Assembly (NCBI GenBank): GCA_000310025.1
Contig: FN649728.1
Location: 4,011,710 to 4,075,709 of the forward strand
Reading direction: 5' to 3'
DNA from: Ectocarpus siliculosus
Lineage: Eukaryota > Sar > Phaeophyceae > Ectocarpales > Ectocarpaceae
Length of the DNA stretch: 64,000 bases
The notes under the pieces are model-generated. The model was not told where the DNA came from. It saw nothing but the letters and a program-made list of their open reading frames with translations, and did no database searches. Position numbers and translations under genes: made by a program. Below, one piece after another: positions 5,139 to 53,500 of the stretch. How positions within the stretch are numbered: position 1 is the first letter of the stretch; every line of letters begins with the position of its first letter.

Positions 5139-8100
5139 ATGCCGCGTACAGCCACCGCCGCTGCTGCTGCGCTGGTGGGTGCGGGAGGGTTCTTCGCCCA
5201 ACTGCCCACGGGCGATAGCCACGCCTACATGATGATCCCGGTCTCGCGTCAGTTGTGGGGGACCTCGGCCTTCCAAGAAGTGTGAGTTGAATAATTTCAT
5301 CGCAAGGCAACCGTTCGTGTTGTCTACTGTAGATTACATCCCCGAACGGTGACATGCGTGTGTCGGGAGAACCGTGGAATAAAACGGATATTATGTTGGA
5401 TGCATTTCGTTGTAGCAGCGCCTATAGTCGGTCCGGGTGTTTCGCATCATATGCAGTAGCTTGCAGTCGCTAGAAATGCACACCACAGGTTGTTGTTCTG
5501 CCGCGTGTCGACCAGAAAAAAGGCAATGGTGTGATGCCACATCGCCAACGGGAAAAAAGAACAACCAAGTATTGTACCTTCTGCTCCATATATACGCCTG
5601 TATCCACAATCCGTAGAACGGCCCCTGAACCCCTGTCGCCGCTCGGATCTTCACGTGCTCCTCTCCTCGCCACACTGCAGCGGGTCGCCGGACATAAACT
5701 ACTGCCCACACTGTTTCCAGAGCCGTGGGCCAGCTGCTATTCGTGCACGTGGAGGCGACAAGCCGTGGCCTCACTTCAACGGTGAACGAGCGGAAAACGG
5801 CAACTACATCGAGAGCGAAGAGGTGGCTCAGAGGCACGGAATCTGCGGCGATCCTGAGCAGGTACCGTTTGTCGCAGAGTCGTTTCGCATGAGGGTGTGG
5901 ATAGTTGCTATTGGGTACGGTTCTCCATGTGAACAGAAACCGTGCAGTACACACAAATACTATTAACTACCGTAGTACTATGCTTAAAGCTTGACTCTCT
6001 AATGCGAAAACAAGAAGGATGTACAACAGTAGAGTGAAAAACCTGTGTTTTCCCAAGGCCAACCTATACAAGAATAGAAAATATCTGCGCGTCACATCAG
6101 TACATGAGCATTGTCCAGCTTTGTGTTTGCGCTTAGATACACGTGGATATGTATACGCGACTTTCGGTCCTGACCGTACATGTACGCGCGCTATTGGCTG
6201 TGCCACTACTGTATCATATTTAGATCGATTGGAAGTACTTCCGTGCTTCGATTGCACGTAGGTTGTTAACCACCTGTCCCGTCATGTTCGTTTCAGACTG
6301 CGGCCGAAGACTCCAACAAATACGGCCTAGAGAACAGCAACTACCCCGTGCTCGAGACGTACGCCGAAGGGGGAATCCTCGAGTTCAAGATGGTCGTGTC
6401 GACCTACCACTGGGTGCGCTCACGTTTGGCTGTCCAAAGTGTCTTTCTTGTATCTCGTCGCGTGTCACGTGTCTGACGAAGGAGCTTTTTCGCTCCTTGC
6501 ACGAAATCTGTCTCGACATGCAGCCCATCGTTCTTCGAACGTATATTGAACTTATCGAGGGCTTACCTACGCCGTCATACTACCAACGTTGAACCGCTGG
6601 CTGGGGGATGGTGGGTCCGATAAGACCTGCTTAGAATACCGTGTCGTAGCCCCGGCGAGCACTCGTGAATTGTTTATTGGACCCGATTACCGTGCGGGGT
6701 AAAATGAGAGGCACCCGCCGTGAGCGGGCGCTCTTTGATAAACCTGAAATACTACCCCGAGCGTGAAAAGGCCTCGTGGCGTTGTTCCGATCATTTCAGA
6801 CCCAAATAATGAAGAAGACAACCTTCGCTCCCGAGATGATCTTTGACCCAAGCAGCATCAACGAAACGTAGTTGGGGGATTCTTGCACCGTTCGGGTAGC
6901 TGCGATTACCCTCCCCTCCGACAACCAACTGAAGAAGGGCCCGCAGAACGCACGGTATCCGCAACCCCCTTAGTATGGCCCACTATCGCGCCGCCGGGTC
7001 AACGAACCGGTTCTCAAACGAGCTCCGACAAAACGTGGTGGTGCTGGACTACAGGCTAGATAAAGGAACGATGAAAATATTCTGTGTGAACCAGGACAAC
7101 AACAAATTTCAAATCCTTCAAGCATGTTGGTAAAAGCGAAACATTGACAATAAATTGCCAGGAAAGAGACCGTTGGTTTCTGTGGTTGGACCGTCGGGGG
7201 GTGAGGGAGGTTTCGCGAACAAGGGATCGCCCCGCGGGGTTGATTGAGAGTAGTTGGGGCGATCTTCAAACAGAAGACAGTTTGACCACGGGGTTTCAAC
7301 ACGGAGGGGGATACGAGAAGAGCATGTTACGGCACTGAATACCGGACAGGTGGAGCTGACGCTATCGAACAGGCTCTCCCCCTGTCTTCAAAATCCAACA
7401 TATCTGTTGCCAATCTTCCCGTGCGCCTCTGACACACCCATTTTTTCTGACAGGGCCATGTCGAGATGTTCCTCTGCGACGCCGACGACCTCCCCGGCGG
7501 TCCCGACAGCACCGTCACACAGTCCTGCTTCAACGAGCACCCCCTGGATCGCGTAGACGACGATGACTTCAACAGCCCCATCGACCCCAGCAACACCGGG
7601 CGCTTCATCCTCGACCCCCCCTGCCGCGCCAGCGAAACCGACCAGGAAATGCTGGACGGCGCCTTCCCCGGTGATGTGGCCACCGCGAGATTCAAGCTAC
7701 CCCAAGGCCTCACCTGCGAGCGTTGCGTGGTTCAGATGGTTTACTGTGAGTCACGAACTTACGTGGGGTCCTCCTTTTCATCCTTGCGTGCAGGCAGACG
7801 CTGCCCAGATTATTTTCGAAAGTGGTATCCAACGTACAATCTCTGACAGACATGCAGCGTTGCCATCCGAGATCTTTTTCTCGAGATCCATCCGTATCCC
7901 TTATTTTTCAAGGATACCGAAACGCCCTTTCACTCCTTGCAGCGAGTTTTCTCCAAATCCTTTTCCTTTTCTTCAATATTCCGACGAGTGTGTTGTCACT
8001 CATCCCCCTCTCGTCCCCAATATTCCTCATCAAAACGCAGACACCGGCAATTCGTGCAAGCACCAAGGATACGCAGAATTCAACCCCGAGTCGTGGCCCA

Positions 8101-10174
8101 GCTCATGCGCACCTACCAAGGCCGACTGGATCAACGAGGTCGTCGGGCATTGCGGCGACGGCGACGCCTACCCAGAGGAGTTCTGGAACTGCGCTGATAT
8201 CTCGATCACGTCCGGTGAGTTCTTCCATCTCAGACATAATGCACTCTTATCCACAATGCAGTCCACGTGTCTACAACAAAACACGACTATAACAGGCTTG
8301 TAGATATTTGCCTTTGGTTCGTTTGGCTCTTCGAGTCAAGCCACGTCAGCTGTTATGAGCCCTTGAGCTTGGAAAACGTTGTAACCAACTGACTGCTGGC
8401 AGCCAACTGTGGGCTGGCTCTGACGCCTTCTATTGCTACATCGCAGAGCACCCTTGATGGTGGTGCTGTGCTGTACTTTCAAGAGCTCTGACTGGAGGGA
8501 TCACTTGTACGCCCTACATCGTATTGCAAAGCAAGCTTTGGAACGGCAAGTTCCCTCGTGCACGCTAGCCTCTCATATGGCAGGCACTCTACCCCCTTCC
8601 CCGCTCCCCCCTCCTCGCCTTCCGTGCTTTTCGGCAACCGTCAGATGGAGACCCGGCTCCCAGTCCGACAACTGTCCTCACCCCCGCCCCGACGGCCCCT
8701 GAAGAGACCGAACCGCCTGCGACCGACGTGCCCACGGCAGCGCCCTCGTCCGCCACGACTTCCGAGGGTGAAGAAGAAGAGGAGGAGACCGGCGAGCCCA
8801 CACCGGCCCCGATCGCCATCGAGGGAGAGGACACTGACGTGCCTACCTCAGCTCCAACAACCTCCCAGGGAGAGGAAGCCGACGAGCCCACGTATGCCCC
8901 CACTTCCGAGGGGGACAGGGAGGAGGAGAACACGGACGGGCCTACACCGGCGCCCACCATCCCCGAGGGAGAGGAGACTGACTTGCCTACCTCGGCTCCA
9001 ACAACCGTCCAGGGAGAGGAAGCCGACGAGCCCACGTATGCCCCCACGTTCGAGGGGGACAGGGAGGAGGAGGACACGGACGGACCTACGCCGGCGCCCA
9101 CCATCGCCGAGGGAGAGGAGACTGACCAGCCTACCTCGGCTCCAACAACCTCCCAGGGAGAGGAAGCCGACGAGCCCACGTATGCCCCCACTTCCGGGGA
9201 GGAGGAGGACACGGACGGACCTACGCCGGCGCCGACCATCGCCGAGGGAGAGGAGACTGACCAGCCTACCTCGGCTCCAACAACCGTCCAGGGAGAGGAA
9301 GCCGACGAGCCCACGTATGCCCCCACTTCCGAGGGCGACAGGGAGGAGGAGGACACCGACGGGCCTACGCCGGCGCCCACCATCCCCGAGGGAGAGGAGA
9401 CTGACTTACCTACCTCGGCTCCAACAACCGCCCACGGAGGGGAAGCCAACGAGCCCACGTATGCCCCCACTTCCGCGGGGGACAGGGAGGAGGAGGACAC
9501 GGACGGGCCTACACCGGCGCCCACCATCGCCGAGGGAGAGGAGGGGGAGGAGACCGATGAGCCCACACCAGCGCCCACCACCGAGCTCGAGCCGGCCACG
9601 ATCATGGCCTCCCCCACCGAGGCGATCGTGGCGACCTTCGCACCGTCGGTGCCCCCCCCTGTGTCGACCGACCCCGACTGCGAGGACCCTGTCGGGGGGT
9701 TCAACCAGTGCGGGGGACCGGGCTACGAGGGCTCCACCTGCTGCAGGACCGGCTACGACTGCGAGCAGATGGCGGACTGCTACTTCGAGGTAAATAAAAC
9801 GCACGTCGGTGTTGTACTTGCAGCGTGTCTGCGGTGCACTCGGTGGTGATGGTTGAGTGGCCCTCGTAGTTTTTCTCACCAGCGGCAGTGATTGTTCGTG
9901 AGTGCGACCGCGTCTGTCGCTACTTCCTTCCCCCTTCCCATTCTCGCATTAACCGGCCGACAACACTACCTACCCCGCCCTCTCTTTCTTGGCGTGTTGT
10001 TCTTCCCTGCATTGGTCCCAGTGCCGCCCGCGTGGCGACCGCTGCTCCGAGAGCTGGGGGCAGTGCGGAGGATTGGACTGGGAAGGCCCCGAGTGCTGCT
10101 GGCCCGGCGCTAGGTGCGCCGAGCGCAACGAGTGGTACTACCAGTGCATTCCCGAGGATGCCATCTACAGATAA
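5139..10174 (+). CDS. Secreted lytic polysaccharide monooxygenase, AA15-like, with two C-terminal CBM1 modules (copy A)
   Basis: Copper enzyme predicted to cleave crystalline polysaccharide oxidatively outside the cell. Exons: 5139-5281, 5681-5861, 6297-6413, 7454-7745, 8041-8214, 8645-9789, 10022-10174; all boundaries are GT/AG and the frame closes at 734 residues. Residues 1-27 are a signal peptide. Cleavage before His28 would expose the N-terminal histidine of the copper brace; the mature start HAYMMIPVSRQLW matches the LPMO pattern. The second brace histidine is probably His146 in YHWGHVEMFLC. CPHC, GICGD and FWNCADISI resemble the AA15/chitin-binding type-4 fold (PF03067). The catalytic part ends near residue 302. 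A Thr/Pro/Glu linker with 48-residue repeats follows, then CBM1 at about 653-685 and 692-726, each with the QCGG...CC...C pattern and aromatics. The family is known on chitin and cellulose; the substrate here is unknown. AA15 assignment is by motif only. Confidence 0.9.
6923..7440. repeat. Extra ~520-bp segment in intron 3 of LPMO copy A
   Basis: Intron 3 is 1040 bases in copy A (6414-7453) but 524 in copy B (18344-18867). The two introns align up to CCGACAACC (6921 in A, 18852 in B). Copy B then passes almost directly to its splice acceptor, while copy A carries about 520 further bases. The segment has no open frame I trust and no obvious terminal inverted repeat. It may be an insertion in A or a deletion in B. 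Confidence 0.55.
8842..9552 (+). repeat. Coding minisatellite, five 144-bp units in the LPMO linker
   Basis: The landmark CCTACCTC(A/G)GCTCC starts at 8842, 8986, 9130, 9265 and 9409, giving spacings of 144, 144, 135 and 144 bases. All are multiples of three. Each unit encodes about 48 residues on the scheme PTSAPTT, GEEADEPTYAPT, GDREEEDTDGPTPAPT, EGEE. The 135-base unit lacks three residues. The result is an acidic, Pro/Thr-rich, probably extended and O-glycosylated spacer between catalytic domain and CBM1. High similarity between units implies recent unequal exchange or slippage. Copy B retains only about one unit. Confidence 0.9.
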
Positions 10175-11960
10175 AGGGGTCTTGTTCCATCCACCCAAGC
10201 ACGGTTGGACGGCGGCTCGGTCGTGGACACGCCATCAAGACCACGAGGCTTGGTTGTTGGTATCTAGGTCGGCTCTCCGCCATACATGTGCACGTGAGGA
10301 ATTAGAGAGAAAGGATGAATCGTGAAGCCGCTGGTTTGGACGACAATCGTTTGTTGTTTCTGGCAGAGCTACTCTTTCGTATGTGTCGCACCGTGTTGCT
10401 CATCAAGGTGGCCGAGGTCTTTGGTGTTGGCCCGGTTTTTCCTCGGGAGACTTTCGTAGCTTCCCGCACTTTCGTGGAGTGAAACGAGTACACTCCTCCT
10501 GTTGTCCAGTTCTCGAGCTGTTGCAGTTGTTTTCTCGTCTGAGAGTAGTAGGCTGCTGGTGAGTGTCTTCGATTCGCTTTGCACCGTTGAGATCGTCGGC
10601 GCTCAGGTACCGTCATCTTGAGCATTTCCTTCGTTTTTCTCTCCGTTTATGTACGGCAACACCACATCATAACAGCTCTTTGACTTACCTCCGCAGCCTG
10701 AATAGGGCCGCGAGGCAAACAACGACACACCACCCCCGTGATCATTTGTGCTATTAGCTGTATTACACACTCCTCTCACGCAAGTTGAGCACGCTCCGTC
10801 CCGTCGGCGTAGATGGTCGGTACCCGGCGGCGGTGGCTGTGCTTCCATGTTCTGGGCTCGGAAGAAGGCGTTTCGTCGACGATGTCATGAGTTAGTGTGT
10901 TTTTTGCTTTCCAAGGTTTGGTGGTCTCGTGAGACTGGGTCGTGAAGGATGGCATAATAGTTGCTTTGTGCGTCATGGCAGACTCCCACCTCTGAGCGCT
11001 GAGTGTTCGTTACTGTTGTGGGTATTGGCTCCCAGGCGCCATGTAGCTGCTTGTCCAGGTTTGGTTTATTTAGTGGGTGGATGCTACATCTCCTTGGCCG
11101 TGTTCAGAGTTTCTCGTCTTTGGGTTTTATGATTGGAGAAATAACATGTTCGTGATCCCCGTTGGGCATCCGAAATTGTTTGCCCTGATCCGTTCGCGTT
11201 TGGTGGTAGAAAATGACAGTAAATGCACGTCGTCGCAGACCTGTTGGACGAAAGCTAGATTCACATATCTACTGCGCGGACCGATATTTAGCACGGGTTT
11301 ACTCGGTAACGGTTTTTTAGGCGAACACGGTTTCGGCGGTAATGTCATTTGGTGGCAAGGGGTTTGGCGGTAAGGCGGTAATGCATTTATTTGTCGTCAC
11401 GGCTTTGGCGGAGGCGACGAAATAAATTAACTGCTGTAATTTTTTGGACGGAAACGCCACACGGCACAGTTGGCGGTTTTTGCGTTTTTCGGCGGTAATT
11501 ACTTTAGGCGAAGGCGGTAAAACCAAAAATCGGCGGGAACACGGCGGTAAACCGTTACCGCCCACCACGGCGGTATATTCATGGTGGTAAAAAATACCGA
11601 GGGTATATAGCCCCTAGCCAGGGGCATCTGCTGGAGAATGCCCTCGCGGGTTGTCGTGCGAGTCGTCGTCGACTCACTCCTTGCGTGGACCCGCCAAGTT
11701 GGTTCTCATTGTGGTTGTTTCCAATATCGTTCCGCTGAGACGTGAGAATGGTAGTTAGTTGCGTTTTCCCCCGTCGAAGGACGGGGTGGGGGTCCCTTTA
11801 CGCGTGCTTTCCAGCATTCTCAAATGTCATGCGCAGGTGGTTTGGGTGCCTCGTTGAGCGTTACTGGCAAGCACAAGGTAGGTTTTGCGTCCATAACTGC
11901 ATTGACTTGACGTTGTTCCTGTTGAATGTTTCATGGTGTACAGAAGGTAAGTACATGTAG
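10175..11960. repeat. 3' flank of LPMO copy A, duplicated downstream of copy B
   Basis: Aligns in order with 20589-21960: for example GAATCGTGAAGCCGCTG, TGTCGCACC, CACGTCGTCGCAGAC, GTCGAAGGACGG-like and CCTTTACGCGTGCTT blocks occur in both. Divergence is much greater than in the exons. No coding frame is conserved between the copies, so this is probably untranslated and intergenic DNA carried along in the duplication. The equivalent of 11291-11605 is absent from copy B. Confidence 0.6.
11304..11560. mobile_element. MITE-like insertion with 12-bp inverted ends
   Basis: Starts CGGTAACGGTTT (11304-11315) and ends with its exact reverse complement AAACCGTTACCG (11549-11560). The 257-bp interior is studded with the octamer GGCGGTAA and variants (at least six on the plus strand). 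The homologous flank of copy B lacks this stretch, which supports an insertion after the duplication, or a deletion in B. No target-site duplication is visible, and the true ends may extend to about 11600, where GGTAAAAAATACC-like sequence continues the theme. Non-coding, so it would depend on a transposase elsewhere. Confidence 0.55.
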
Positions 11961-12780
11961 GAGGAGAGGAGGCATTGCCCCTCCACGCCCCTAGTTGGGG
12001 CGGGTGCCCAGAATGAGAAAGATGAATGTGGGGACGAATAATTCGTGGTGGACATATGACGGGGTGTTTCTAGAACCACGTGCGAATACCATATGCATAG
12101 TCTATACGACTTGTGCGTTTTGTGTTTTCTTGAAAAACAATAATTGGAACGATTTGGTTTTGTCGAACATGGATGGAACATATGAGAAAGGGCAGAGAAA
12201 ACTGTCATTGTTTTGGTGATGAAACATCGAAAATAAATATCAAGGATCAATCCCAGCCTTGTCGCCGAGAGATCACGCCAAAGGCAGGTAAAGAGTGTTC
12301 GAAGCCCGCTCGTGGATGCGTCCAAGCTCCAACGGAGCAATATGGCATGGTGCAGAATACTGTTGTGGGAAAACTCTGGGTGGGGAAAGTCTTGAAGTAC
12401 AAACAGCCGCAACATCAGACTATACATACATGTGAAAACAATCTGCATGCGCCATTGGTGCGAAGGGTCTCAAGATACACTAGGGAAAGAAATCAACGAA
12501 CGATATGATATGATGACTATGTCCCAAGAAGGGGAGGGGCATTAACGAGGTAGACACCGTGGACAATGATTCAAATTTCTATTTCGCCAGGCGGCAGAGC
12601 TTTTGCCGTACTCAGCACCGATGTGAAATAGACCTAAAGTAATAGTACCACGAGTACTAACATTCTACACGAAGCACAACCAACATCAATCTATCTTTAA
12701 CAACATTGAGGTGAGGAAAAACTCGTTCACCTTTCTTTACCTCAGAAACGATCGTACATTATTAGAGAAGCAAACCTGTG
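11961..12780. other. Intergenic, no supported gene
   Basis: No coding frame or recognisable repeat. The ~195-codon minus-strand open frame at 11861-12448 has no family features, runs into the duplicated flank at its left end, and is likely chance. Confidence 0.4.
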
Positions 12781-13160
12781 CATCTTCCATCGAAGCTCGC
12801 GAAGCGACTTCCATGGAAGTCGCTTGGTAAGCTCGCCCACCTTCGTGCAGGTTAGGAAGCTTTGTGGCACAGTTCCCACGGAAGTGTACCACCTGAATCC
12901 AGATTCCATGGAAGTCAAGATGAGTGACAACCATGAAAGCTTTCAAATACAGCTTTCATGGAAGTCGTTCGCGTTTCTCAACGTCCATGGAAGCCATCGT
13001 CAGGGGCTTCCATGGGAGCTGTCTCCCACTCGTTTCCACGGAAGCAATCACCCGAGTCCAGCTTCCATGAAAGTCATCGTGCAGGGCTGTCATGGAAGCT
13101 TGCACGGGAAGCTCCCATGACAATCCTTCTCTAGGATGTCCGCTTCCATGGAAGACCTCG
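12781..13160. repeat. Array of degenerate CTTCCATGGAAG palindromes
   Basis: At least twelve copies of a self-complementary motif close to CTTCCATGGAAG lie within 380 bases, spaced irregularly by about 20-45 bases. The best is a perfect 20-bp palindrome at 12804-12823 (GCGACTTCCATGGAAGTCGC). Near 12930-12960, CATGAAAGCT and AGCTTTCATG form a second perfect inverted pair. Others are near 12784, 12873, 12904, 12992, 13006, 13033, 13061, 13090 and 13143. This is a dyad-symmetric satellite-like block, not coding. Confidence 0.8.
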
Positions 13161-13340
13161 TGAAGGACTTTGAGGATGTCGCACCTAATCTACTCAGCGG
13201 CAGTGGGTTGTCGATGCGTTCGACCACGCATCCGTTGCCGACATATAATACTTGGGCCCTGGTCGGTAGCCGTTGCCGATGCCGCTGTCACCGGAGGACC
13301 CGATCACAGTGACTTCCGCTCAATGTCTCCCGTCACTCTA

Positions 13341-14469
13341 ATGCAATGCCACCTCATACCGCTGCACCGCCGACAAAGGAAACGCCGTCCATATCCGACC
13401 ATGTCGAGCCTATGCTAGAAAGTCCACGCCAGAACTTGAAACGCATGTAGTCCCTCTCGAGTTCTTCACGGCAGCAGGACCCGCCGGCGAAGCCATCGCC
13501 GTCGCAGCCGCCGCAGCCGCAGACGGTGCCGGGGGCAAAGAGGGAACCGCAACCACCGGTGTGATAACGGAGGCACCACCCGCCGCCGTGACAAATAGAG
13601 GCACCGCCCCCCACCCCTGCTGTAAAAACGGAGCCGTCCCGGGGCGGTGCCGACGCCCCCACAACGAATTTTCCTCTGAGGAGCCACCGGGTTTCATTGT
13701 TGATGCAGTTTCGGTAGCGCGGCTATCGCTGCCGGCAATACAGATCGCGGACGTTTCGGCTGATGGCCGGGGTGTGCCCCTGTCGTCTGCCGGAGTACGC
13801 ACAGACCGGGCCCAAATGGATACGACCGGTCCTGCCGCAACGGGGGCGTACGCTCTTAGCTTGCGCAAAGGATCTACAAGTCCAGGAGTGGACGATTTCT
13901 TTTCGGTTGTTTCGTATCCCCCGGCATAGTTGTCTGCTTCCGCTCGCTCGGCCGAAAGTGTGCAGGCTGAATTATTTCGACCACTGATTCCTCTGCCGAC
14001 TGGGCTGAAGTCGCCCACACGGGTGGCTGGATGGCGTGCCCCGCTTCACAAGCGTGTCCTCATGGGTATTTCGGATCCCTACGGCGCCAACGTGGCAACT
14101 TGCCGCGAGGTAGATTCCTCGTTTTTCACTAAGAACTGCTTTCTGGTGACAGCTGGACGCGTTTTCTCTCTCGCTTGTCCACAACTCTGCCCAGGTGGTC
14201 TGTGAGTGGACGCATGTCGATGTGTTGCCACACGCGCCTTCGACGGATGTCGACGTCGAGGGGTTTCGACGTTTGTGGCCGCAGATGGTATGCCGATCAT
14301 CTCGGCCCGGAAAATGTTCGCCCTCGCCGGCATTGCACCCTGCGCGGGCTCTGTGCCCGAAGGACCTCCTCCGGCTTCCGTTTCTGTGGAGCCGGACGTC
14401 GCTCTCTCGTCCACGTTTCGCCGCTGCCCGTTCGATTCTGCGAGATCCTCTGAATTCTTCTCGAACTGA
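13341..14469 (+). pseudogene. GC-rich open frame interrupted by two stops, unknown family
   Basis: One plus-strand frame runs from just after a TAA near 13340 to 14469, broken only by TAG at 13927-13929 and TGA at 14203-14205 (about 375 codons in all). Its early part overlaps a different frame (13262-13420), as if shifted. The product is rich in Ala, Pro, Ser and Thr with scattered Cys, and I recognise no domain. Long frames also exist on the minus strand (13410-14018, 13972-14520) and at 14195-15019 on the plus strand, so part of the openness is due to GC bias. It could be a decayed retroelement gag-like frame or chance. Confidence 0.25.
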
Positions 14470-15819
14470 ACGCAGCTTCGGGGAATGGCTCGAAGCCGTC
14501 CTACCTATTTTCTGGAACAACCGCTGGCCAATGTTTTGCCCAGAACCCCGCGGTCTCCTCGGACGCTTCCTCGCAATCGCGGTGACACGTTGTCGGCGCG
14601 TGCTGCCGGCCGCTCATTTTGAAGCTCGCCGCCCCCTGCGGCGTCTGCCGAGCCGCCGCTCCCATCACCGGCCAGCGCGTGACCAACTGCTGCACCCGCC
14701 GCCCGCGGAGCACACGTCATCGTCCCTGCCACCCGCTGCTACTAGCCCCGGGCCTTCGGCGGTCCCGCCCACAGTCGCCGAGAAAGTCCGTCTCCCCGAC
14801 TGTGTGCATTCGTTCTCGCAGGCTGATTGGGCTAGGGAACAGCTGCCGGAAAGTGAGTGCGTGATGGCCATACGTTTTCCATGTTTGGGGATCCCCGACG
14901 GTCTTGCCAGATACTTTCTGGGATTCTTCGACTCTTGCGCGGGCGGCCAGCGCTGTCCGATGTCGTCGCCCTTACATCTTCGGAGGCTCCAAGTTTTGCG
15001 CGGTGACCCGCGCTTGTAGTAAAGTACCGCCCGTTGTCGAAGCAAATTTGTTTTTTGTTTTGGTGCTGCATCCCCAACCCCGTTCACGTCCGCCGCCTTG
15101 TGTAGACAGGTGGGAGGGTGGCTTGAAATGAGCAGGTCCTTCGGCAGACGCTGGGGATGGCTACACAGTCGGTCTGATCGTTTTCTGTTCAATCAACACG
15201 ACGCCAACTTGCGCCCGCCCACATTTACTGCGAATTTCACCCTCGTCGTGGATGTCTCTCATGTGCAGCGGGGCGGGAGTTGGACGGGCGTCATGTTGGA
15301 GCGGAGATGTTTCGTGGCGCGAACGACGATATCGTCTTTGCGTATGTAGTCTCAATATTGTGCAGTAGAGTTCATATGATCGCCGGTGCTGGTTTGGCTG
15401 GAGAGCCTCTGGTGTCTTTTGCTGAACTACCAGTCCGTTGGGCGCTGGGCTTTCAAAGCTATCGAAAAGTGCTGGGTGCTCCACGCCGACGTTTCATGCG
15501 TCAGTTGTTTATCAAGCATCATAGCGAGCTTAAGTGACTGATGATATGATTGGATCCGGGAGTTTCGTGTGTAAGCTATTTCTGAGAGGAAAAGGGTTTG
15601 CCAAACACACTCTCGTCCCCGTTTATTGTGTGTGTAGATGGAGTACGAAAAATGATTTCAATATCTGGAGTGCCTTGTTTGATTACCTTGCTTGGCTCAA
15701 GCGGCGAATATATGTATGCACAGTAGTCTAGGCCGTAGTCGGGAATCATGAATGCCAAGACTTCTATGCCCTGTGCTACTGTACATCGGCGGGTTGGGTG
15801 CTAACGACCGGAACGTATT
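14470..15819. other. Intergenic, no supported gene
   Basis: The GC-rich block continues to about 14830 with overlapping open frames on several phases and no recognisable family. From 15020 the base composition returns to that of ordinary intergenic DNA. Nothing further is supported. Confidence 0.35.
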
Positions 15820-15990
15820 GAATCCAACGTGACCAGAGGCGTCACCTATGTCATCATCACCCACACGAAACGTTTCGGCTGCCGGTCGCTCTGACCCAGG
15901 GTATCTACCAACTCTCTCGATTTGCTCTGGACATTGATTGTGTGTAACATGGCTGGATGCTCTGTGGGACCGACCTACTATCTTTTTCGT
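15820..15990 (+). repeat. Left border of the copy B duplication unit
   Basis: Resembles bases 100-270 in order and orientation (CCGGTCGCTC, CAGGGTATCTACCAAC, CTCGATTT, CTGTGGGAC). The distance from this border to the LPMO start is about 1.06 kb in copy B but about 5.04 kb in copy A, so roughly 4 kb was gained in A or lost from B. Confidence 0.55.
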
Positions 15991-16739
15991 GTCTAGTTTG
16001 GATCGAGCCTCAACGTGATTGCTCGAAAACTGTTCGCGTTTGGTGATGGTGAGAACAACAAGCAGCGCCGTGGGGACGGCGAGATCATGTGTGGGAAGAA
16101 AGTAAAGTGCTTTTTCTCGCCATGGCAAAACGACGGAGGAGATGGCCAGAAACAGGACCGATAGAGACGGAGGTTTGCGACAACCAGCGTTCTGGTCGGC
16201 GTCGTAGTGAGCGAATGGCGCGATTCCTTGAAATAAATGTGCCGCATGAAACCTTTCAATTCTCAGAAGAAACAACGGTCTCTGTCAGAGAGTAGATAAC
16301 GATATGATTGCAGTAGCTCCGAACGGCACTAACATTGCCGAGCTGAAGCGCAGTTAATTTTTTATTCTTGTGGTACATATATGTATCCATTTTTTGTCTC
16401 TTGTGTGTACTCATTTACCCCGTTCCTCGTTCCAAGTCGTTGACATGCATTGCAGTCTAGACTACTGAAGCTTTCGCCACTGCCACTCTCTTGGGTTTTG
16501 CTTGCAGGTGTGGCGCACACAGATCACCTGCGAAGGTTCCGTGTCTCTGTTCACTCAACCATTAGTCAAGCACAGAGTATACCGACCCCCTGTGCGTGCA
16601 TGGATGACATACTTCTCTCGCTGCCTCTAAGACACTTGATCAATACTTTGTGCAAGCTGTTATTTGCCGCCAACGGCAGAAACACGTGCGGGAATAAAGC
16701 TGTTGAACAGTACTTTTTCACAAGATTTCCAGAATATTT

Positions 16740-16879
16740 CCGCACACCGCCCATCTACCCACCCACCCACCCCAACCACACTACATCACTCCCTCTTCCT
16801 CTTCCTCTCGCTCGTCAGCCACACACCTGCCCTAGGAACACCATCAAGTAGCAATACATACCTAGTCTACACAGCGATC
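16740..16879 (+). promoter_or_regulatory. Conserved 5' flank of LPMO copy B
   Basis: Counterpart of 4995-5138: CACTCCCTCTTCCTC, CTCTCGCTCGTCAGCC, ACACACCTGCC, CAATACATAC and ACAGCGATCATG are shared. A CCCA-repeat tract at about 16757-16780 replaces the C-rich run seen in A. No TATA box is evident. This is probably the core promoter and 5' untranslated region. Confidence 0.5.
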
Positions 16880-19800
16880 ATGCCACGGACAGCCGTCACC
16901 GCCGCCGCTGCTGCGCTTGCGAGCGTCGCAGGGTTCTTCGCCCAACTGCCCACGGGCGATAGCCACGTCTACATGATGACCCCGGTCTCGCGTCAGCTGT
17001 GGGGGACCTCGGCCTTCCAAGACGCGTGAGTTGATCAGTTTCGTCTCGCAAGGCAACCGTGTGTATTGTCTATCTACTGTACAAAAGATCGCGTCCCCGA
17101 GCGGTGACATGTGTGTGGCGGGAGAACCTTGGAGTGAACCGGATATGATGTTGGATTACACATGCGATACAGCAGTTATAATAAGTTATAATAAGTTGTT
17201 AAATATACTGCTGTAAGAAGCGCCGACTGGACGTAATGCACTGCTGTAGTCTCGATCCGGGGTGGTGCGCGCATCATAAGCTGTCGCTTGCGGGCTCTAT
17301 CAATCCGCCCTGTGCCATGTGGATATGCATGGACAGAGAGTATTCTCTACATGCAGTCGTCAGAGCTCAGGGTGTTGTGTTCTGATGTGTTGTCCGAGCG
17401 ACGACCAGAAAAAAAGGTCCGTGATGTGATGCCACATCGAGCGGGAAAACGGAAGCGGGAAACGGGAAAGATTTTTAACCGTTATTTACTACCGGTGTTA
17501 TACTGTTGTACTACTGTACGTCCATCAGAACTGCCCCTCTGTAACCCTGTCGCCGCTCGGACCTTCACGCGCCCCACTCTCCGCCACACTGCAGGGGATC
17601 GCCGGACATAAACTACTGCCCACACTGTTTCCAGAGCCGAGGGCCAGCCGCTGTTCGTGCACGTGGAGGCGACAAGCCGTGGCCTCACTTCAACGGTGAA
17701 CGAGCGGAAAACGGCAACTACATCGAGAGCGAAGAAGTGGCTCGGAGGCACGGAATCTGCGGCGATCCTGAACAGGTACAATTTTGTGTCGAAGCGTCGT
17801 TGTGGCGCATGAAGGTGGTGAATTATGATGTTGCATGGGACAGTGGTGCAATTGAAGCGTCTGGACAACAGCAGTACACACACCCATAGACGCTTGTACA
17901 GTAGATTGACTGCTGCAGTACAGTATGGAAGTTTGACTCTTTCGGGGGCGAAAACACAAGGATTTACCACGTACGTACATTGTGCGTTGTCCACAGCAAG
18001 TGTTGACCTTAGATATGTAGACCAGTCTACATGTATATTATAGTTGTTCCACCGTGAAGTTATATAAACTTGGCTACCGCACTTGACCTTACATGCACGC
18101 GCGCAATGCATACTACACTGTAAGCATCTTGTCGAGTCTTGTCGTACCGTGGACTGTTGTACCGTGCTTTGATTTTTCATAGCTGTTCAACACCTTTCAC
18201 TCATGCAACCGTCATTTTCCTTTCAGACTGCGGCCGAAAGTTCCAACAAGTACGGGCAGGAGAACAGTAACTACCCCGTGCGCGAGACGTACGCCGAAGG
18301 GGGAATCCTCGAAGTCAAGATCGTCGTGTCGACCTACCACTGGGTGCGTTCACTTTTGGCTGCCCGACGTGTCGTTCTTGTATCACGTCTCGTCGAGTGC
18401 CACGCGTGTGTCTGACCAAGGAGCTGTACGCCCCGCACGACGTCTGTCTCAGAAGTAGTCGACATGCCGCGCGTCATTCTTCGCTCGTTTGTAGACCTTC
18501 GCGAGGGCGTTAACAAGTCATTTATCCTGCCAACTGCTGTTGAACCGCTTGCTGGGGGGATGGCAGCTCTCCGCGATACCGGGGGGCAATCGTGTAGTAC
18601 TGTGTCTTTCCGGAAATGTCACCGGGATACTGGCTAGAGGGGCGCTTTTTGAAGAACTGAAAAAGCTCCGGGGGTAAATATCCTCATGGCGTTGTTCCGA
18701 TAAATATTGCAAAAATGTGACGACATTGACGAATCACCAACACACGCACATATCGCCGCCATCTCGGACCCGGACATCCATCAAAATTAGTCGTGGATTC
18801 TACCGCCGTTCAGGTAGCTGGGCTTCCTACTCTAACATGTCCTTCGACAACCTTCCTCTCCTGACAGGGTCATGTCGAGATGTTCCTCTGCAACGCCGCC
18901 AACCTCCCCGGCGGCCCCGACAGCACCGTCACACAGTCCTGCTTCAACGAGCACCCCCTGGATCGCGCGGACGACGACGAGTTCAACGGCCCGGCCGACC
19001 CCGACAACACCGGGCGCTTCATCCTCGACCCTCCCTGCCGCGCCAGCGAAACCGACCAGGCACTGCTGGACGGCGCTTACCCCAGTGATGTGGCCACCGC
19101 GAGATTCAAGCTGCCCCAAGGCCTCAGCTGCGAGCGCTGCGTGGTTCAGATGGTTTACTGTGAGTTACGTTGGTCGTCGGTATTTCCTCGAAACGGTAAC
19201 CAACGTATAACTGTGACGGAATTACCGCGTTGCCATTCAAGACTGACACTTCCTCGGGATTTTTTCAGTAGCCCTGCATTTCAAGGATACCGAAACGCAC
19301 TTCCACTCCTTGTCACTTTCTAAGGTTACTTGTTGACTTTCATGCACCCCTCCCTTCTTCCTCATCACACCGCAGACACCGGCAACTCGTGTAAGCACCA
19401 AGGATACGCCGAGTTCAACCCTCCCTCATGGCCCAGCTCGTGCGCCCCGTCCAAGGCCGATTGGATCAACGAGGTCGTCGGCCAGTGCGGCGACGGCGAC
19501 GCCTACCCGGAAGAGTTCTGGAACTGCGCTGATATCTCCATCACGTCCGGTGAGCTCTTAAACCTCAGATATCATGCACCTTCATCTACAACGTAGTCCC
19601 TGTGTTTTCAGTTGTCATGTAAATCCGCGAAAGAACCTTCGGAACTCTGAAATACCGCCCTCATGGTCCCTCATGCACGCAAGCCTCTCACGCATATGTC
19701 CGGCACTCTCCCCCCCCGCCCCCTTTTCCTTCCGTGCTTTCCGTCGATTGTCAGATGGAGGCCCCGCTCCCGGCCCGGCTCCCGGCCCCGCGCCCACCCC

Positions 19801-19897
19801 GACGGCCCCTGAAGAGACCGAACCGCCTGTGGCGGACGTGCCCACCGCAGCACCCACGTACGCCCCGATTCCCGACAGCGAGGCGGAGACAGACTAG
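16880..19897 (+). CDS. Secreted AA15-like LPMO, copy B, truncated before its CBM1 modules
   Basis: Paralogue of copy A, about 11.7 kb downstream on the same strand. Exons: 16880-17025, 17595-17775, 18227-18343, 18868-19159, 19376-19549, then 19755-19897 to an in-frame TAG. Exons 2-5 match copy A base for base in length (181, 117, 292 and 174) with the same phases; exon 1 is one codon longer. The product is 350 residues: signal peptide, mature N-terminus HVYMMTPVSRQLW (His29), second brace His at about 147, FWNCADISI near the end of the domain, then a short Pro/Ala and Thr/Pro/Glu tail. All copper-brace and cysteine positions I can identify are retained, so the catalytic domain should be functional without the CBM1 tail. 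An unseen intron that skips the stop could restore longer isoforms. Confidence 0.82.
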
Positions 19898-20588
19898 CCC
19901 ACCCCGGCGCCTACCACCGTCGAGGAAGAGGAAACCGACGAGCCCACGTACGCTCCCACTCCCGAGGGCGAAGAAGCCGAGGAGGAGACGGACGACCGAC
20001 ACCCGCGCCCACCGCCGAGCTCGAGCCGACCACGCCCATGGACTCTCCGACCGAGCCGATCGTGGGGACCTTCGCGCCGTCGGTGGCCCCCCCCGTATCG
20101 ACCCACCCGGACTGCGAGGACCCCGTCGGTGCGTTCAACCAGTGCGGAGGAGCGGGGTACGAGGGATCCGCCTGCTGCCGGACCGGCTACGACTGCGTGG
20201 AGATGGCAGACTGCTACTCCGAGGTAAATATTCCCACGTCTACGTCGTACTTGTTCTAGCTTGTCGGCGATCGTGTACGCACTCCTTTGAGTCCTCCTCC
20301 GTTATTTGAGAATCTTCCTCCTGAGTGCGCCCTGCTATTGCTGCCGCCCTTTTTTTGGCATTTCTCGCGTTCTCTGGCCGACCATACCACCTCGCCCTCT
20401 CCTCCTTGGCGCGTGTTTATTTTCTACGTTGATTCCAGTGCCGTCCCCGCGGCGACCGCTGCTCTGAGAACTGGGGGCAGTGCGGAGGACTGCACTGGGA
20501 AGGCCCCGAGTGCTGCTGGCCCGGCGCCCGTTGCGCCGAGCGCACCGAGTGGTACCACCAGTGCATTCCCGAGGATACAGCCGCCTGA
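19898..20588 (+). pseudogene. Disconnected linker and two CBM1 modules of LPMO copy B
   Basis: Downstream of the TAG, the linker continues in the same frame (ETDEPTYAPT motif) to about 19995, then the CBM1 coding sequence continues in another frame (20038-20223), indicating a small indel near 19990-20005. The donor after CYSE (GTAAAT at 20224) and the final exon 20439-20588 match copy A. Both modules keep the QCGG...CC...C spacing and aromatics (GYEGSACC, HWEGPECC). The modules are intact, so the break is either recent, an assembly error, or bypassed by splicing. Confidence 0.7.
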
Positions 20589-21960
20589 TAAAGATCCGTT
20601 CTTCCTACCCTCCAAGCGCTTTGTTCCGGTGGTGAACTCGCGGGCAAGACCATGATGGCTTGGTTGTTGTTAATCTAGGTTGAATCGTGAAGCCGCTGTT
20701 GTGGACGGCAATCGCTTATTGTTTCTCGTAGAGCTACTGCCTTCGTACGTGTCGCACCATGTCGTTCACCCAAGTGACCGCGGTCTTCAATGTAGCAGTT
20801 TGGTTTTCCCCGAAGGCTTTCGATGCTTACGGTAGTTTCGTGGTGCGAAACAAGTATTTTCCTGATGTCTGTTTCCCGTTCTGTTCTCTTGGACCAGCTA
20901 AATGTAGTTGTGTTCACTCGTGTAGGAGTGGGCTGCTGGTAAGCCTGTGCCTTCCGTTCAATTGTGCCGTTAGAGGTCGTCGGCCCTTGGGCACTATTCG
21001 CTCCAGTTTCTTCTTCGTATTTGCTCTCCGCTTGTGTAAGGCTGGCAGACAACAGAGAAACGAGCAATAGAGCTCCGAAGCCGGAATGGTGCCGCTAAAC
21101 GAAGAACCTTCACCGGTTTCGAGTATCCAATTATCGGTATCACACGCACCTTTTACGCAAGCACGCTGCCTTCCCGTTAATGATGGTCGAGTACCCCGGC
21201 AGCGGTGGCTGTGCGTCCATGTTGTGGGCACAAACGATGTTCGTATTCTATGATGTTCGATGTTTGTTGGTTGTATGAGGTCAGAGATTGGGAGGATCGT
21301 GAAGGATGGCATGCGTCGTGGTAGACCCGCGTCTCTGAGCGATGAGTATTCGCCTTAGCAACTTGTCCAGATGTTGTGCAATTTAATGGAAGCTTTTTTA
21401 CAATGTGATCCTTGACCGTGTCCGAATTTACTCGCCTTTATTCCTCCTGTTGGGTGTCAACATATTTCTTGTCCTGGTCGGTTTGCGTTTGATGTGGAAA
21501 TTTTCTCGAAAATCACGTCGTCGCAGACTTGTTGGGAAATACAATGCATGTCTCCTGCACGGACCGACAGATGCTAGACTGCTAGGTGCATCTGCTGAAG
21601 GGTGTTTTTTCGGGCTGCTGTGTGCCAGCCGCTGTCGATTCCCCCATGGGGTCGACTTGCCACCTTTTTGCTGCTCGCCTGTATGATTTGTATTCGCGTT
21701 CGTTCGCGTTCATTCGTGTACTTTTTACATTGTCGTAGTCGCTGTGAAGAAAGATGGTAGTTGCTTTTTCCGCCGTCGAAAGAAGGGGTGGTCGTTCCTT
21801 TACGCGTGCTTCTCCAGTATTATGCAACGTCGTAGGCAGTTGGCTCCGGTGTCTCTTACTGGCGAGGGTGTTGTTGCCCGCGGGTAGGCTTTATTTCATC
21901 GAATGCATGCAATATTGTTGTTGTTGACAAGGAATTCATGGAAGTCTATTGTGCGTCAGG
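20589..21960. repeat. 3' flank of LPMO copy B, duplicated from copy A
   Basis: Aligns with 10175-11960 but lacks the MITE-like element. No conserved frame. The similarity fades after about 21960, which I take as the right end of the duplication unit. Confidence 0.6.
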
Positions 21961-23648: not shown

Positions 23649-23748
23649 NNNNNNNNNNNNNNNNNNNNNNNNNNNNNNNNNNNNNNNNNNNNNNNNNNNN
23701 NNNNNNNNNNNNNNNNNNNNNNNNNNNNNNNNNNNNNNNNNNNNNNNN
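23649..23748. other. Assembly gap of exactly 100 N
   Basis: A run of 100 N, the conventional size for a gap of unknown length, sits between a C-run ending at 23648 and a C-run beginning at 23749. Confidence 0.99.
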
Positions 23749-24126
23749 CCCCGGTAGGGGGTGGGGGGCCCTTTTTCTTCCCCCTTTTTCCGGAAAAGGC
23801 CCCCCAAGGGGGACCCTGGGGTTGGGGGGGAATGGGGTTCCCGGGGGTTTTTCCCCGTTTTTCTTTTTTTTTTGGGGGGGTTTTTTATAGTTTGGGGGGG
23901 GGGGCTAAAGTCCCTTCCCCAGCTCCTTAATTTAAAAAGGCTAGACTTGAAACCGGCGTTTTGAAAAAATGAGAGGGGGAAAACCGGGTAGCTTTTTTTA
24001 GTTTTTTTGGGTCCGGGAAAAAAGGGGTTTTTGCCCCGAGTCCCGGGGGGGGGGTTCCCTCGAAAACCTTAATTTTTTTGGGGGCCAACCCGGGGGGGGG
24101 TCCTTTTTGCCCCCCCCCCCCCCCCC
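23749..24126. other. Smeared, low-quality duplicate of 23277-23648 (probable assembly artefact)
   Basis: This stretch tracks 23277-23648 word for word with isolated bases replaced by their neighbours: GGCTAGACT(T/C)GAAACCGGCG, CCAGCTCC(T/A)TAAT, CTCGA(A/G)AACCTTAAT and the final CCAACCCGGGG...TCCT...TTTGCCCC appear in the same order in both. Runs such as GGGGGGG and TTTTTTT replace mixed sequence. That is what slipped reads through a poly-C tract look like. Clean sequence resumes at 24127. Confidence 0.88.
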
Positions 24127-47879: not shown

Positions 47880-50545
47880 ATGATGAACAGGTTCGCGGGC
47901 GTTGTTTATGGCACGAGGCTTTTTTCACCCGCAGGCGCGTTCGTGCGCGAACCTATCCGTGTCAAGGCCGGGAAAGATGCGTACTCTGTTTTCAATGTTG
48001 ACAGAGACGAAGGTTGTGATGCCGATAACGCATGGCTGAGGTCGACACGGAGTAAGTATCACACGAACCCTGTAGTCGCCCATGAGAGTTGTCCTCAAGT
48101 TGTGTGTTTTTTTCACATTTTTGCGAGGAACTCGTTGGCACGTGAGGCGAGTTTTTTGCAACGCGAAGGCGCAAGGCGATGGTCTGTTGCTTTTGCAGCT
48201 CTCAGGGTTTTCTTGCACTCCTCGGTGACAGCAGTAGCGTTCTCATGGGGGCCTCTCGTGTGTCTCGTCACCCCGTTGATTGATGGTCCTAGGGAAAGCC
48301 GTCACTCCGGAATCTCGGGGACAAAACACCCGAGACCGATTGATGCGGTTGGTATTCATCAAAACTGTTTTATCGTCGCACAAGTATTCTGCGGTAACAT
48401 CAACAGAGATAGTGGTGGCAGCTGCGGTAGTAGCAGCGGCAGTGGTAGCAGTCTCAAGAGGTAGAGGCCGCCAGTCTACCTGCAAGCCGTCGACTGGACC
48501 CTGGATTTTCGAGCACAGGCTAGAATTCTGGCCGGCGTTCTTGCTTTGTATTCAATGGGGTGTGTCGGGAGCGGAGGAGGCTGGCTGCGGCGGCACACGA
48601 GGGTCTCGGCTTTTCACTCAACACACAGCTCGGGATTGTTTCTCTGACACTCACCACTATCGCGGGATTCTGATTATTGGACTACCTCAAACTCGAGCCC
48701 CTTGCAGCTCTGTCCCTGCGGCGTGACAATCTGGGGTCTTATTGCCTGTTCCTCTTGGTTGTTCGCTTCGTGTGGTGGTCAGCGGCAAGAAGGCGAGGAA
48801 GAAAGAGCAACAGTTTGCCGAGGGCATGTCTCCCTCGGATGGGGTGAGTGAACCTTTGGACGGGCCCCAAACTGCCCTCGTTGTTGTTGTATTTTGTTTC
48901 GGCTCTTGATTGACTCCTTGCGTTCGAGGCTGTGTGTGTGCTGCAGTATCCCATCGACAGCACCGCGACCCGACGAGGTTCTACTTCACGCCTTCGTCGT
49001 GTGCCCGGAGGCTTGTGCATCAGGCTGGAGCTCTGAATATGTTGCGTAGTGCTTCGGCGTTGTAGTTTTGCGCGGGCCTGCTCCTGTCTTTGGCTTTGCA
49101 AGCGCATATTGATTCAGGTCGTGCTGCTCTGTGGGTGACACGGAAACGGCCTCTTGCCTCGCCAATATTGTTCAAGTTTCGGGGCACACTTGCCCCTGAA
49201 AACACGACTAGCTGTCAATGTCTCATCAGAGCACTTAAACGCGTCTGCATCGAACCCATGCCGCAGGGCGACTATCCCGTGTGCGCCATGGAAGACGACC
49301 CGACCCTTCCGGAGGTTTTGACCGCGGTCAAGGCAGCGGATGAGCGCAAGGCGGGGAACATCGTCGCCATTCGGGTGAGAGTGGGTGGCGGCCGCAAGTG
49401 ACGGAAGTCTGTGGCGTTGTGTATTGAGTTTCTCAAGAAGATACATGCGTCGTTCACCACCCTGTAAATCATGATGTGCTGGTACGGACGACTTCTGTAA
49501 AAAACACTGCTGTGTGTGCTGCCGAAGCAGCATTCTCTTAGGCGAGGCACATGGACAGCAGTGTGCCACAGCACTCCCAAACAACATCGGCAAGTTTTTT
49601 CTTTCGCCGTGTTCTTTTCGTTCTCAGGTGGCAACGTTGACGGTGATGACAGAGTTCATGGTGGTGCTGGAGGGGAACAGCAGACCACAAAACCAGGCCA
49701 TCGCGCAAAACATCGAGGAGAAGATGGAAGAGATGCACCAGAGAAAAACGAAGTCGCAGGTGCGATAGCGACACGTGGCGCGATTGGGTTCTCTCTGTAT
49801 CTGGTTCGCCCAGAACTATTCCGAGTTGAGAAGACAACCAGGCGTCCTGAGGGCTTGAGACGAAAAATAGCTACTTTAGTTGGCGCTATCGTTTTCAACG
49901 CATCCGATCTATTGGTGTGCGGATACTTGCCGGTACCGAGCTCCTATCGTTCCCTATCGCTTTTTGCCGTCCCGTCGGGTACTGCACGTGGAAGGCAACC
50001 TTCCCGCCCCGCCCGCCCCCGCCGCCGCCCCTCTGCGCGTGCCCTGTTTCGCCCGTGTGCACGCTGCAGGGAGCTCCGGAAAGTGGTTGGATCCTTCTCG
50101 ACTATGGGGACATCATCGTGCACATCATGACCCCCAAAAGCCGGAGCTACTACGACCTCGAATCGTTCTGGTCAAACGGGGAGCGGGTCCCTCTGGACGG
50201 GGTGTTGAAGCCCAACGTCCCGGAGCCGGAAATCGCCGTCGTGGAAGAAGTGGTGAGTGCCTTTCAAGGCCGTCGTCGTGCTTGTTTTCGTTTTTATGCA
50301 CCATGCATGCGGCAGATGTTGCTGAGCGTGCGTGTGGCTGGTGCTGTGCAGCCGGGAAGAGGGTATTGTCGAGAACTTGCTGGGCACTTGGATCCCAACG
50401 TGTCTTTTCACCCGCCGAGGAGATTACCGTACATTCGCATCATGATGAGGCATCCGTCCGCTACCCTTTTATCCCCAAAAATGTTGGTGTCCTTCGCTGT
50501 CGGTTCTGCATTCGTTACTTTCCGCAGGATCCCTTCTGGTCGTAG
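47880..50545 (+). CDS. rsfS: Ribosomal silencing factor RsfS/Iojap family, probably organellar
   Basis: RsfS binds ribosomal protein L14 of the large subunit and blocks subunit joining; eukaryotic members act in plastids or mitochondria. Secure exons: one ending at 49378 (frame from about 49270, KAADERKAGNIVAIR), 49628-49759 (MTEFMVVLEGNSRPQNQAIA), 50070-50252 (GWILLDYGDIIVHIM, SYYDLESFW) and a last exon 50528-50545 coding only DPFWS and the stop. The order D/E-x-x-A-x-N-I-V, T-x-F-x-V-L-x-G-x-S, then W-x-L-L-D-Y-G-D and Y-Y-D-L-E is diagnostic. The 5' part is less certain: 48783-48843 (Lys-rich, QQFAEGM) joins in phase, and 47880-48051 begins with ATG and has a basic, Ser/Ala-containing start that could be a transit peptide, but their junction does not keep phase, so an exon is missing or misplaced. 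Confidence 0.85.
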
Positions 50546-53500
50546 AGGAGGGACATGGCCACAAGGTGGACGGACCCATCAAGAGCGAAGAGTGTTCGGT
50601 TACAGCGACAAACCACAGCTGAGCGGGCATGCTTGCTAGACGCGTTCCTCGTTAGAAAAATGCACGATGAGGTATCTTGGAGACCGATGCGTTCCAACAC
50701 TACGCAGAGATAGGCGAAGCATGGTTGCGCGCTGCCATGTACATGCAGCGTCTGATAACGGACGAAAACGGGCTTTGCGGTGACAGGGCAACGATGAACG
50801 TTGACACCATGCAATTGCCGTGTTGTCGACACCGTCTGCCATTGGCATCGATCGTTGCTAGTCCATGGAACAGGCACGAGGGTGGGGGGCGTAGTTGAAG
50901 CTATTTGCGAGTACCGGGGAATGCCACGGAGCTTGAGTGTACCAGTGTTGTTAGATGCACAAGATGCGGTCGCCCCGGTGGTTCAGTTGGGCCGGGTAGC
51001 CTTCTATCTCCTCTCTGGATTGCCGCTTCGAATTCTCTCTGGGATCAACAAATCGGAATCTAGAGGTAGAAGGCGCGTGTTCACGAGAAAGAAAACTTAC
51101 GCCTGACCCATCAATTTACGTGGGCAAAAAATACACCGACCACCGACCTATCAAACGTTGGTCCTACGGCTCACGATGGGGCAAACTTAAGTCATCAGGT
51201 CACCCATGTCCTACGCACCACTATTGTAGGGACTTGCCCTGCAACAGAACAAGCTCGGGCTGTTGCTCCGGTGGCGTTGCTACACCCAGCCATCGATGAC
51301 GACATTTCGGGTCACAATCCAACCGGAACATATGACGAACCAAGCGTTAACTCTCCGGGGTGAGCTCCCGGGTAAGAGCTCTGAAGCTTTATCTTCAGCT
51401 TCTCAGACCATTATCCATGTTTCATTCAACTCCCCCACCCCCTGCCCGACCCGGCCCGAAATGCTGATCTCAAGCTACATTGCAAAACTCGCGGAGTCTC
51501 GAGTATGGCTCGGTGGAGAATCGCAGATCATGACCCCTCCCGAGTTTGAGGAACTTTCCACCTCCTGTGGCCGACAAGGGTCGGCCTTGTCTGTGTCGCC
51601 ACCCGAACGGGGCGGTTGAACAGAAAAAAACGGTCCGTGAGGTGCATCACAACCTTTTATTTTTTCTTGCTGCGTGAGCGGGGCTTCCCATCTTGATGGT
51701 TTGTATCCCTCAGGCGGCTGTTGCGATGCACCACAGCGGGCATCTCGGAGGTATACTGTCTCTCTACCTGTTAGTGTTGGACACACACCCGTACGCGGTA
51801 CTCATTTGCAAACGAAAACATTGCACGGACAGCAACAACCGTGGTTGCTCTCGTTCGTGAGCACGACGCATGTTCGGAGTATCGGACCTCTTTTTGCGTC
51901 TGTTCCATGCGTTTTTTCTCGTTTTTTTCTGTGTACATTTGCTGCTTTGAGCAGTGTTGGGGGACCGCATCTCCAGCAGAGTTTCCGGACCGCATGTCAA
52001 CTGCCGCGATCGCTGCCTCTGGTCTTGGTGCCGTACATTGTTCGGTGGTGTGTATCTATGCGGCTGCACACGTCTACATCGAACATTGACGGTGACATTA
52101 CGGTTGAGTTTGCTGCAACTGCCCGCGTCCCTTCGTCCGTATCTCACCCATGCTCTCCATCAAGAATAAGGTTTCCCTCCACTCACTGTAAAGATTCCAG
52201 CACACCCCTATCGACTGGGTTTATATCTCGAACGGGTAGTCTTTGTGTGAGATTATGATTACTTTCTTTAAATGATATTTTTGTCGGTGTGTGCCGTAAA
52301 TGCGAGTGAGCCACAAGCCACCAACTGAAGTTAGTTACGCTTCCACCACGGAGGAAACGCGTACTACTTTCGCCTTCGTCCATATTTCTCCTTTCTCCCC
52401 TCTCTCCGTCTCTCCCCTTTCCGTCTCTTCTTGGGTACAGCAGTGGACAGTTACTATTTTAAACGTAATGAATAATTTTGTAGGGTCCGCGAACCGTTTG
52501 ACCGACTCTCTGTCTCCGGTTTATTGACTCTATCGAGAGTACATGAGATGGCCTCGAGGATCATTGCTCGCCAATATAAGAAGGCGTTAGGACGGGCAAA
52601 GAGCTTCCTCTACAATGTATGTGTGGGTACATATGCTGCTGCATAGAATTCGCGAACTTTATCCCATTACTCGCTCCCCTATCCCCAAAGTGTTGCATTG
52701 TTTCGTCTACTGATGTATTGCTACTTTGTCCCTCTCGGTTCTCTCCTCTTGTTTTTTTTGTAACAGTTTGTTGAGGTCCTACGGTCCCCCCCCCCTCACC
52801 TAAAATCCAAAATCCATTTTTCACTTGTATTGGACGGGCATATATGTCCTCCTTTGCACAGGTGGCAGCCCCTTAAAAGGCAAGTCGCTGCCCTCCTTTC
52901 ACACATACTCTCCTACCACACCCCTCCTACAGCAGCAGCTCAAACACAACAGTATGCCTTCCGAGACATCCAAAGCGTGGGGGGCCATCGTCGATGAGCA
53001 TGATGGAGAACCAGCCCCGGCAACTGCCCAAGTTCGCCGCAGACGACGCTTTGTTTGTTTGTTTTGTTTGTTTTTTGGGGGCCTGTTTCCTTGCCACATC
53101 CTGTCACCACCTTGTCGGGCCCACAGGCAGGTCTTTTACCCCCCTCCATCAACCGTTCACAAACGCACACACCGATCACGTACGACTCTTCCCGCGCCCA
53201 ACATTTGGGCCAGCATCATCATCATCCATGGCTGAGATCTCCCATCTTTCCTTTCACCCGAAATTATTTCGTTCGTGGTTTCCACATATTCCTTCTACTA
53301 CAAGAGTACGTGCGCTACGGCATCGATGTGCTTCATGCCCAAAACATTATATGCACCTACAGGGGCGCAAATAAGCCATGCACCCACACCTTTTTTACCG
53401 ACGGAAATCGTGTGCGATGAACGAGCGTCACGAACATGTAGCGTTTCTTGTTTCTTTCACCTGTCGCTGTACTTACAGGCAGGCGACGCAGTTGTCTGTC

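Follow-up and report, generated by a model that had tools for sequence, protein, structure and literature searches.

A tandem pair of AA15-type LPMO genes encoding CBM1 modules in a brown-algal genome, and a related gene in a provirus

We analysed a 64,000-nt stretch of Ectocarpus siliculosus DNA, here called the window, which lies 4.01 Mb inside a 7.3-Mb contig (C3). It carries two tandem genes, gene 1 and gene 2, whose features are collected in Table 1 together with those of a related provirus gene on another contig. The sequence-only reading had proposed two genes with identical exon phases, and the GT-AG exon models bear this out: exons 2-5 and 7 are of equal size in the two genes (181, 117, 292, 174 and 153 nt), and exon 6 has 469 nt (1 mod 3) in gene 2 versus 1145 nt (2 mod 3) in gene 1. 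Both genes lie where that reading had put them, except that gene 2 ends at 20591 and not at 20588. Elsewhere in the window we observe an ORF with an RsfS (ribosomal silencing factor) domain (49851-50636, forward strand), an ordinary organelle-type gene, and a run of N at about 23650-23755 that is a possible gap.

Table 1. Coordinates of the features discussed (window positions unless a contig is named)
Feature	Position	Strand	Evidence
Gene 1, 7 exons, 734 aa: signal peptide, AA15-type LPMO, linker, two CBM1	5139..10174	+	GT-AG exon model with open frame; Pfam
Gene 1 exons	5139-5281, 5681-5861, 6297-6413, 7454-7745, 8041-8214, 8645-9789, 10022-10174	+	GT-AG model
Gene 1 mature His1 codon (histidine-brace N-terminus), after signal peptide ...TGDS	5220..5222	+
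Gene 1 second brace His codon (mature H119), aligns with His91 of 5MSZ	6408..6410	+	Profile alignment
Gene 1 axial Phe265 codon, aligns with Tyr184 of 5MSZ	8181..8183	+	Profile alignment
Gene 1 minisatellite, Pro/Thr/Glu-rich linker; period 144 bp (48 aa), 5.1 copies, 90% matches	8820..9543	+
Gene 1 CBM1-a, Phe/Cys/Tyr at aromatic positions	9700..9783	+	CBM_1, 32.5 bits
Gene 1 CBM1-b, Trp/Trp/Tyr triad	10055..10138	+	CBM_1, 43.3 bits
Gene 2, seven-exon structure as gene 1; predicted product about 350 aa, ending in linker	16880..20591	+
Gene 2 mature His1 codon	16964..16966	+
Gene 2 in-frame TAG in linker (exon 6)	19895..19897	+
Gene 2 second lesion, 1-nt deletion versus expected linker frame (approximate, near 20000)	19990..20010	+
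Gene 2 CBM1-a coding sequence, out of frame with LPMO	20134..20217	+	CBM_1, 34.9 bits
Gene 2 CBM1-b coding sequence, out of frame with LPMO	20472..20555	+	CBM_1, 36.6 bits
Provirus family-B polymerase (polB)	C16:4416653		Long intronless frame
Provirus VLTF3	C16:4423235		Long intronless frame
Provirus major capsid protein	C16:4437704		Long intronless frame
Intronless AA15-CBM1 gene, provirus side, one CBM1 at end	C16:4493631-4494737

The gene 1 product matches Pfam LPMO_10 (PF03067) at 62.4 bits (1.2e-16; cut-off 23 bits) and CBM_1 (PF00734) twice (5.9e-16 over the two stretches; cut-off 20.6 bits), and the gene 2 catalytic domain matches LPMO_10 at 68.2 bits (1.9e-18). A search of the PDB returns a single structure, the AA15 enzyme 5MSZ (2e-8 by sequence, 1.5e-11 by family profile), and no AA10 or AA9 structure by either route. 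The assignment of both catalytic domains as AA15-type LPMOs, as the sequence-only reading had it, is supported by these matches. The residues on which that reading relied are all present in the gene 1 product: the N-terminal His after the signal peptide, the second His in YHWGHVEMF, and CADI. Both predicted products start with a hydrophobic stretch with small residues at -1/-3, and then His. The N-terminal His, the second His on a conserved strand and the TQ-CF, C--CV-Q and CADI motifs are common to the algal genes and the AA15 LPMOs TdAA15A (PDB 5MSZ) and AaAA15A of Aphanomyces astaci, whereas the algal domain is about 70 residues longer, and 5MSZ has no CBM. In our alignment, every algal copy and the provirus copy have H119, and all copies with a located N-terminus have His1; an extra His122 (HWGH) is also invariant across copies, where 5MSZ has Phe. 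The axial residue is Phe in every algal copy and in the provirus copy, as in AaAA15A, whereas 5MSZ itself has Tyr. An axial Phe has been tied to the chitin-active AA15s AaAA15A and TdAA15B (PMC5823890, PMC8393829), and for that reason the substrate is not readable from the CBM1 tail alone.

The CBM1 modules of both genes have the conserved cysteines, and the codon for the last one of CBM1-a (Cys35) is supplied across an intron by exon 7. In gene 1, the binding face of three aromatics is complete in CBM1-b (W/W/Y), and CBM1-a retains two of them, F and Y, with Cys in place of the third. The linker before them is probably disordered. Its length is set by the copy number of the 144-bp coding minisatellite, which is probably unstable, and is likely to vary between individuals.

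Of the pair, only one gene had been described as fused to two CBM1 modules. That holds for the predicted products, but gene 2 also encodes both modules, and its tail is broken rather than absent. Because the TAG and the 1-nt deletion put both modules out of frame, the predicted gene 2 product has no CBM1. The lesions appear recent, since the CBM1 regions of the two genes differ mostly at silent sites (dN 0.08, dS 0.36). Judged from its reading frame, gene 2 is probably a CBM1-less soluble form that arose through truncation of the tail; the predicted truncation could be an assembly artefact. Short introns that skip the lesions were considered and judged unlikely, as the introns of the gene pair are at least 205 nt long.

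The genome has 87 matches to the light-harvesting domain and several beta-helix loci, of which the one scanned matches the mannuronan C5-epimerase AlgG weakly but significantly (5e-9, over part of the model). The plastid gene rbcL is not in the assembly. Together, the light-harvesting genes, the AlgG-like epimerases and a phaeovirus-like provirus support a brown alga as the host, the source that had been guessed from the sequence. Fungal or oomycete contamination, the danger foreseen for that guess, is ruled out by the 4.0 Mb depth of the window in its contig, by paralogs dispersed over many contigs and by the algal markers. On contigs C92, C232 and C488, light-harvesting genes form arrays with identical domain scores, which suggests that they were amplified recently or duplicated in the assembly.

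A six-frame protein search of the 189-Mb genome identifies about 18-19 AA15 loci, provirus copy included. Five are on C3 (the window pair and loci at 4.766, 5.996 and 6.060 Mb), further ones are on C11, C15, C25, C70, C75 and C226, four are in tandem on C456, and one is in the provirus. The spliced family models come from a purpose-written protein-to-genome aligner, with some distant copies incomplete, and the family sequence set leaves out three of the C456 copies. Purifying selection acts on the catalytic domains encoded by the C3 genes, with dN/dS of 0.21 between genes 1 and 2 (dS 0.24) and 0.13-0.27 elsewhere. The C3 loci at 5.996 and 6.060 Mb, about 60 kb apart with two CBM1s each, form an inverted pair with dS 0.04 and are a recent duplication. 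The C456 copies (908-952 kb) are divergent, and the CBM_1 search detects no CBM1 there. A bacterial origin was also considered and rejected; GTDB genome contigs contain no relative.

A whole-genome search with the CBM_1 profile gives 18 matches, all on the same strand as an AA15 gene and within or downstream of it; for 17 the distance is at most about 4 kb and for one it is 12 kb. An additional CBM1 on C25 was detected by pattern. Seven loci encode two CBM1s, and at least ten host loci have CBM1 tails. At ten loci CBM1-a is interrupted by an intron whose donor is at one identical position, immediately ahead of the codon for the final Cys. Since the intron-bearing CBM1-a modules share this position, the simplest reading is one ancestral AA15-CBM1 fusion before the family expanded, as opposed to repeated acquisition, which partly answers whether CBM1 was inherited or acquired, a question raised by the sequence-only reading.

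AA15 in Phaeophyceae has already been published (PMC5823890), and AA15-CBM1 fusions are common in the sister oomycetes, among Saprolegniales (PMC8393829), so the gene pair is less of a surprise than had been implied; it enlarges enzyme and domain families that are already known and does not define a new one. Secreted CBM1 proteins are also widespread in oomycetes (PMC3532174). A 2012 survey found no CBM1 in Ectocarpus (PMC3532174); the present genome contradicts its statement that CBM1 is absent from brown algae. In the main texts of the part of the literature we covered, no paper names AA15-CBM1 proteins from brown algae; such a fusion may already be drawn in the supplementary architecture figure of PMC5823890. 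As in the Saprolegniales fusions (PMC8393829), a secreted AA15 with C-terminal CBM1 has undergone lineage-specific expansion in a stramenopile; unlike them, the algal family has seven loci with two CBM1s, a photosynthetic host with an alginate/cellulose wall, and in gene 1 a minisatellite linker. The oomycete CBEL-type CBM1-PAN proteins (PMC3532174) are likewise secreted stramenopile proteins with two CBM1s, whereas their partner domain is a non-catalytic PAN/Apple and the algal one is an LPMO.

LPMOs have mostly been studied as tools to break down the biomass of other organisms. With about 18 LPMO genes and CBM1 tails at no fewer than ten host loci, this multicellular lineage, which is unrelated to plants, offers a test case for oxidative remodelling of an organism's own wall. 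We lean, with modest confidence, towards the gene pair having arisen in tandem within a family of secreted AA15s that expanded in brown algae and that act most likely on the cellulose of the alga's own wall. Once the signal peptide is removed, His1 and His119 would, by alignment, hold one copper ion, and this site with O2 or H2O2 would cut crystalline beta-1,4-linked polysaccharide oxidatively. The long linker of gene 1 would tether the two CBM1s and hold the enzyme at a surface, most probably that of cellulose microfibrils in the alga's own wall, with gene 2 as a soluble counterpart; the setting may be growth, wall loosening, or spore or gamete release. Substrate and physiological role are predictions from sequence, and own-wall remodelling is plausible. 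We favour this explanation because of the LPMO_10 and CBM_1 matches, the invariant brace residues, the purifying selection, the W/W/Y triad of CBM1-b, the occurrence of CBM1 only with AA15, the conserved CBM1-a intron, the algal markers, and the endogenous remodelling of wall cellulose proposed for CBM-fused LPMOs (AA17) in the sister oomycetes (PMC8393829). It is weakened by the axial Phe, which is of the chitin-active type, and by the loss of one of three aromatics in CBM1-a.

The axial Phe in all copies, as in AaAA15A and TdAA15B, would instead fit a defence directed at chitin, in which the AA15s attack epibionts and pathogens (chytrids, oomycetes) through their chitin or cellulose and CBM1 is a broad anchor to crystalline glycans. 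Lineage expansion and tandem arrays are compatible with such an arms race, but CBM1 is classed as cellulose-specific and dN/dS indicates purifying rather than diversifying selection, and we regard defence as rather unlikely. The stop and frameshift in gene 2 and the probably unstable minisatellite could mark the pair as a relic, partly decayed or non-enzymatic, with a structural rather than catalytic role; as neither catalytic domain is damaged and both are conserved and evolve under purifying selection, we consider this very improbable.

The remaining alternative comes from the provirus, at about 4.27-4.50 Mb on C16, which also contains F5/8C, SNase and thaumatin ORFs and a beta-helix gene (4274651) whose resemblance to epimerases was judged by eye. 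Its AA15-CBM1 gene, 53% identical to gene 1, is separated by 56-77 kb from those for capsid protein, VLTF3 and polB. ORFs cover 85% of the 7-kb stretch that holds it, a figure that compares with 13-46% for the window and 39-68% for the surroundings of host AA15 genes. A CBM1 protein was noted in 2005 in the Ectocarpus siliculosus virus EsV-1, which infects brown algae (PMC1192801), and AA15 in viruses was published in 2018 (PMC5823890); the provirus here joins both domains in one intronless gene, and it is by description, not by sequence, that we liken this gene to the EsV-1 protein. In the unrooted tree, the provirus copy sides with the C3/C25 host clade (support 100/99) on a long branch. All this would suit an AA15-CBM1 cassette exchanged between phaeovirus and host, whose viral copy would aid virion exit or entry through the wall. 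As an account of the window genes it is quite improbable: the host copies have introns in common and are scattered widely, which marks the window genes as non-viral, and the viral branch is long and the extent of the element is approximate. That long branch, the approximate ends and an uncertain root (rooting with 5MSZ was unsuccessful, its branch being too long) keep the direction of transfer from being read off the tree; nor does IMG/VR settle it, since it has no relatives of the provirus LPMO, the family alignment or the capsid protein. Brown-algal CBM1 is tied to a viral copy in the same genome, and host-virus sharing is the most interesting lead. Own-wall remodelling and the viral gene might be combined in a shared wall-opening module, where CBM1-tethered AA15s loosen algal cellulose oxidatively and the intronless phaeovirus AA15-CBM1 breaches the same wall, an unlikely proposal as it stands. 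A second VLTF3 match, at C9:5559519-5560014, is interrupted by stops and is a decayed relic of another giant-virus insertion.
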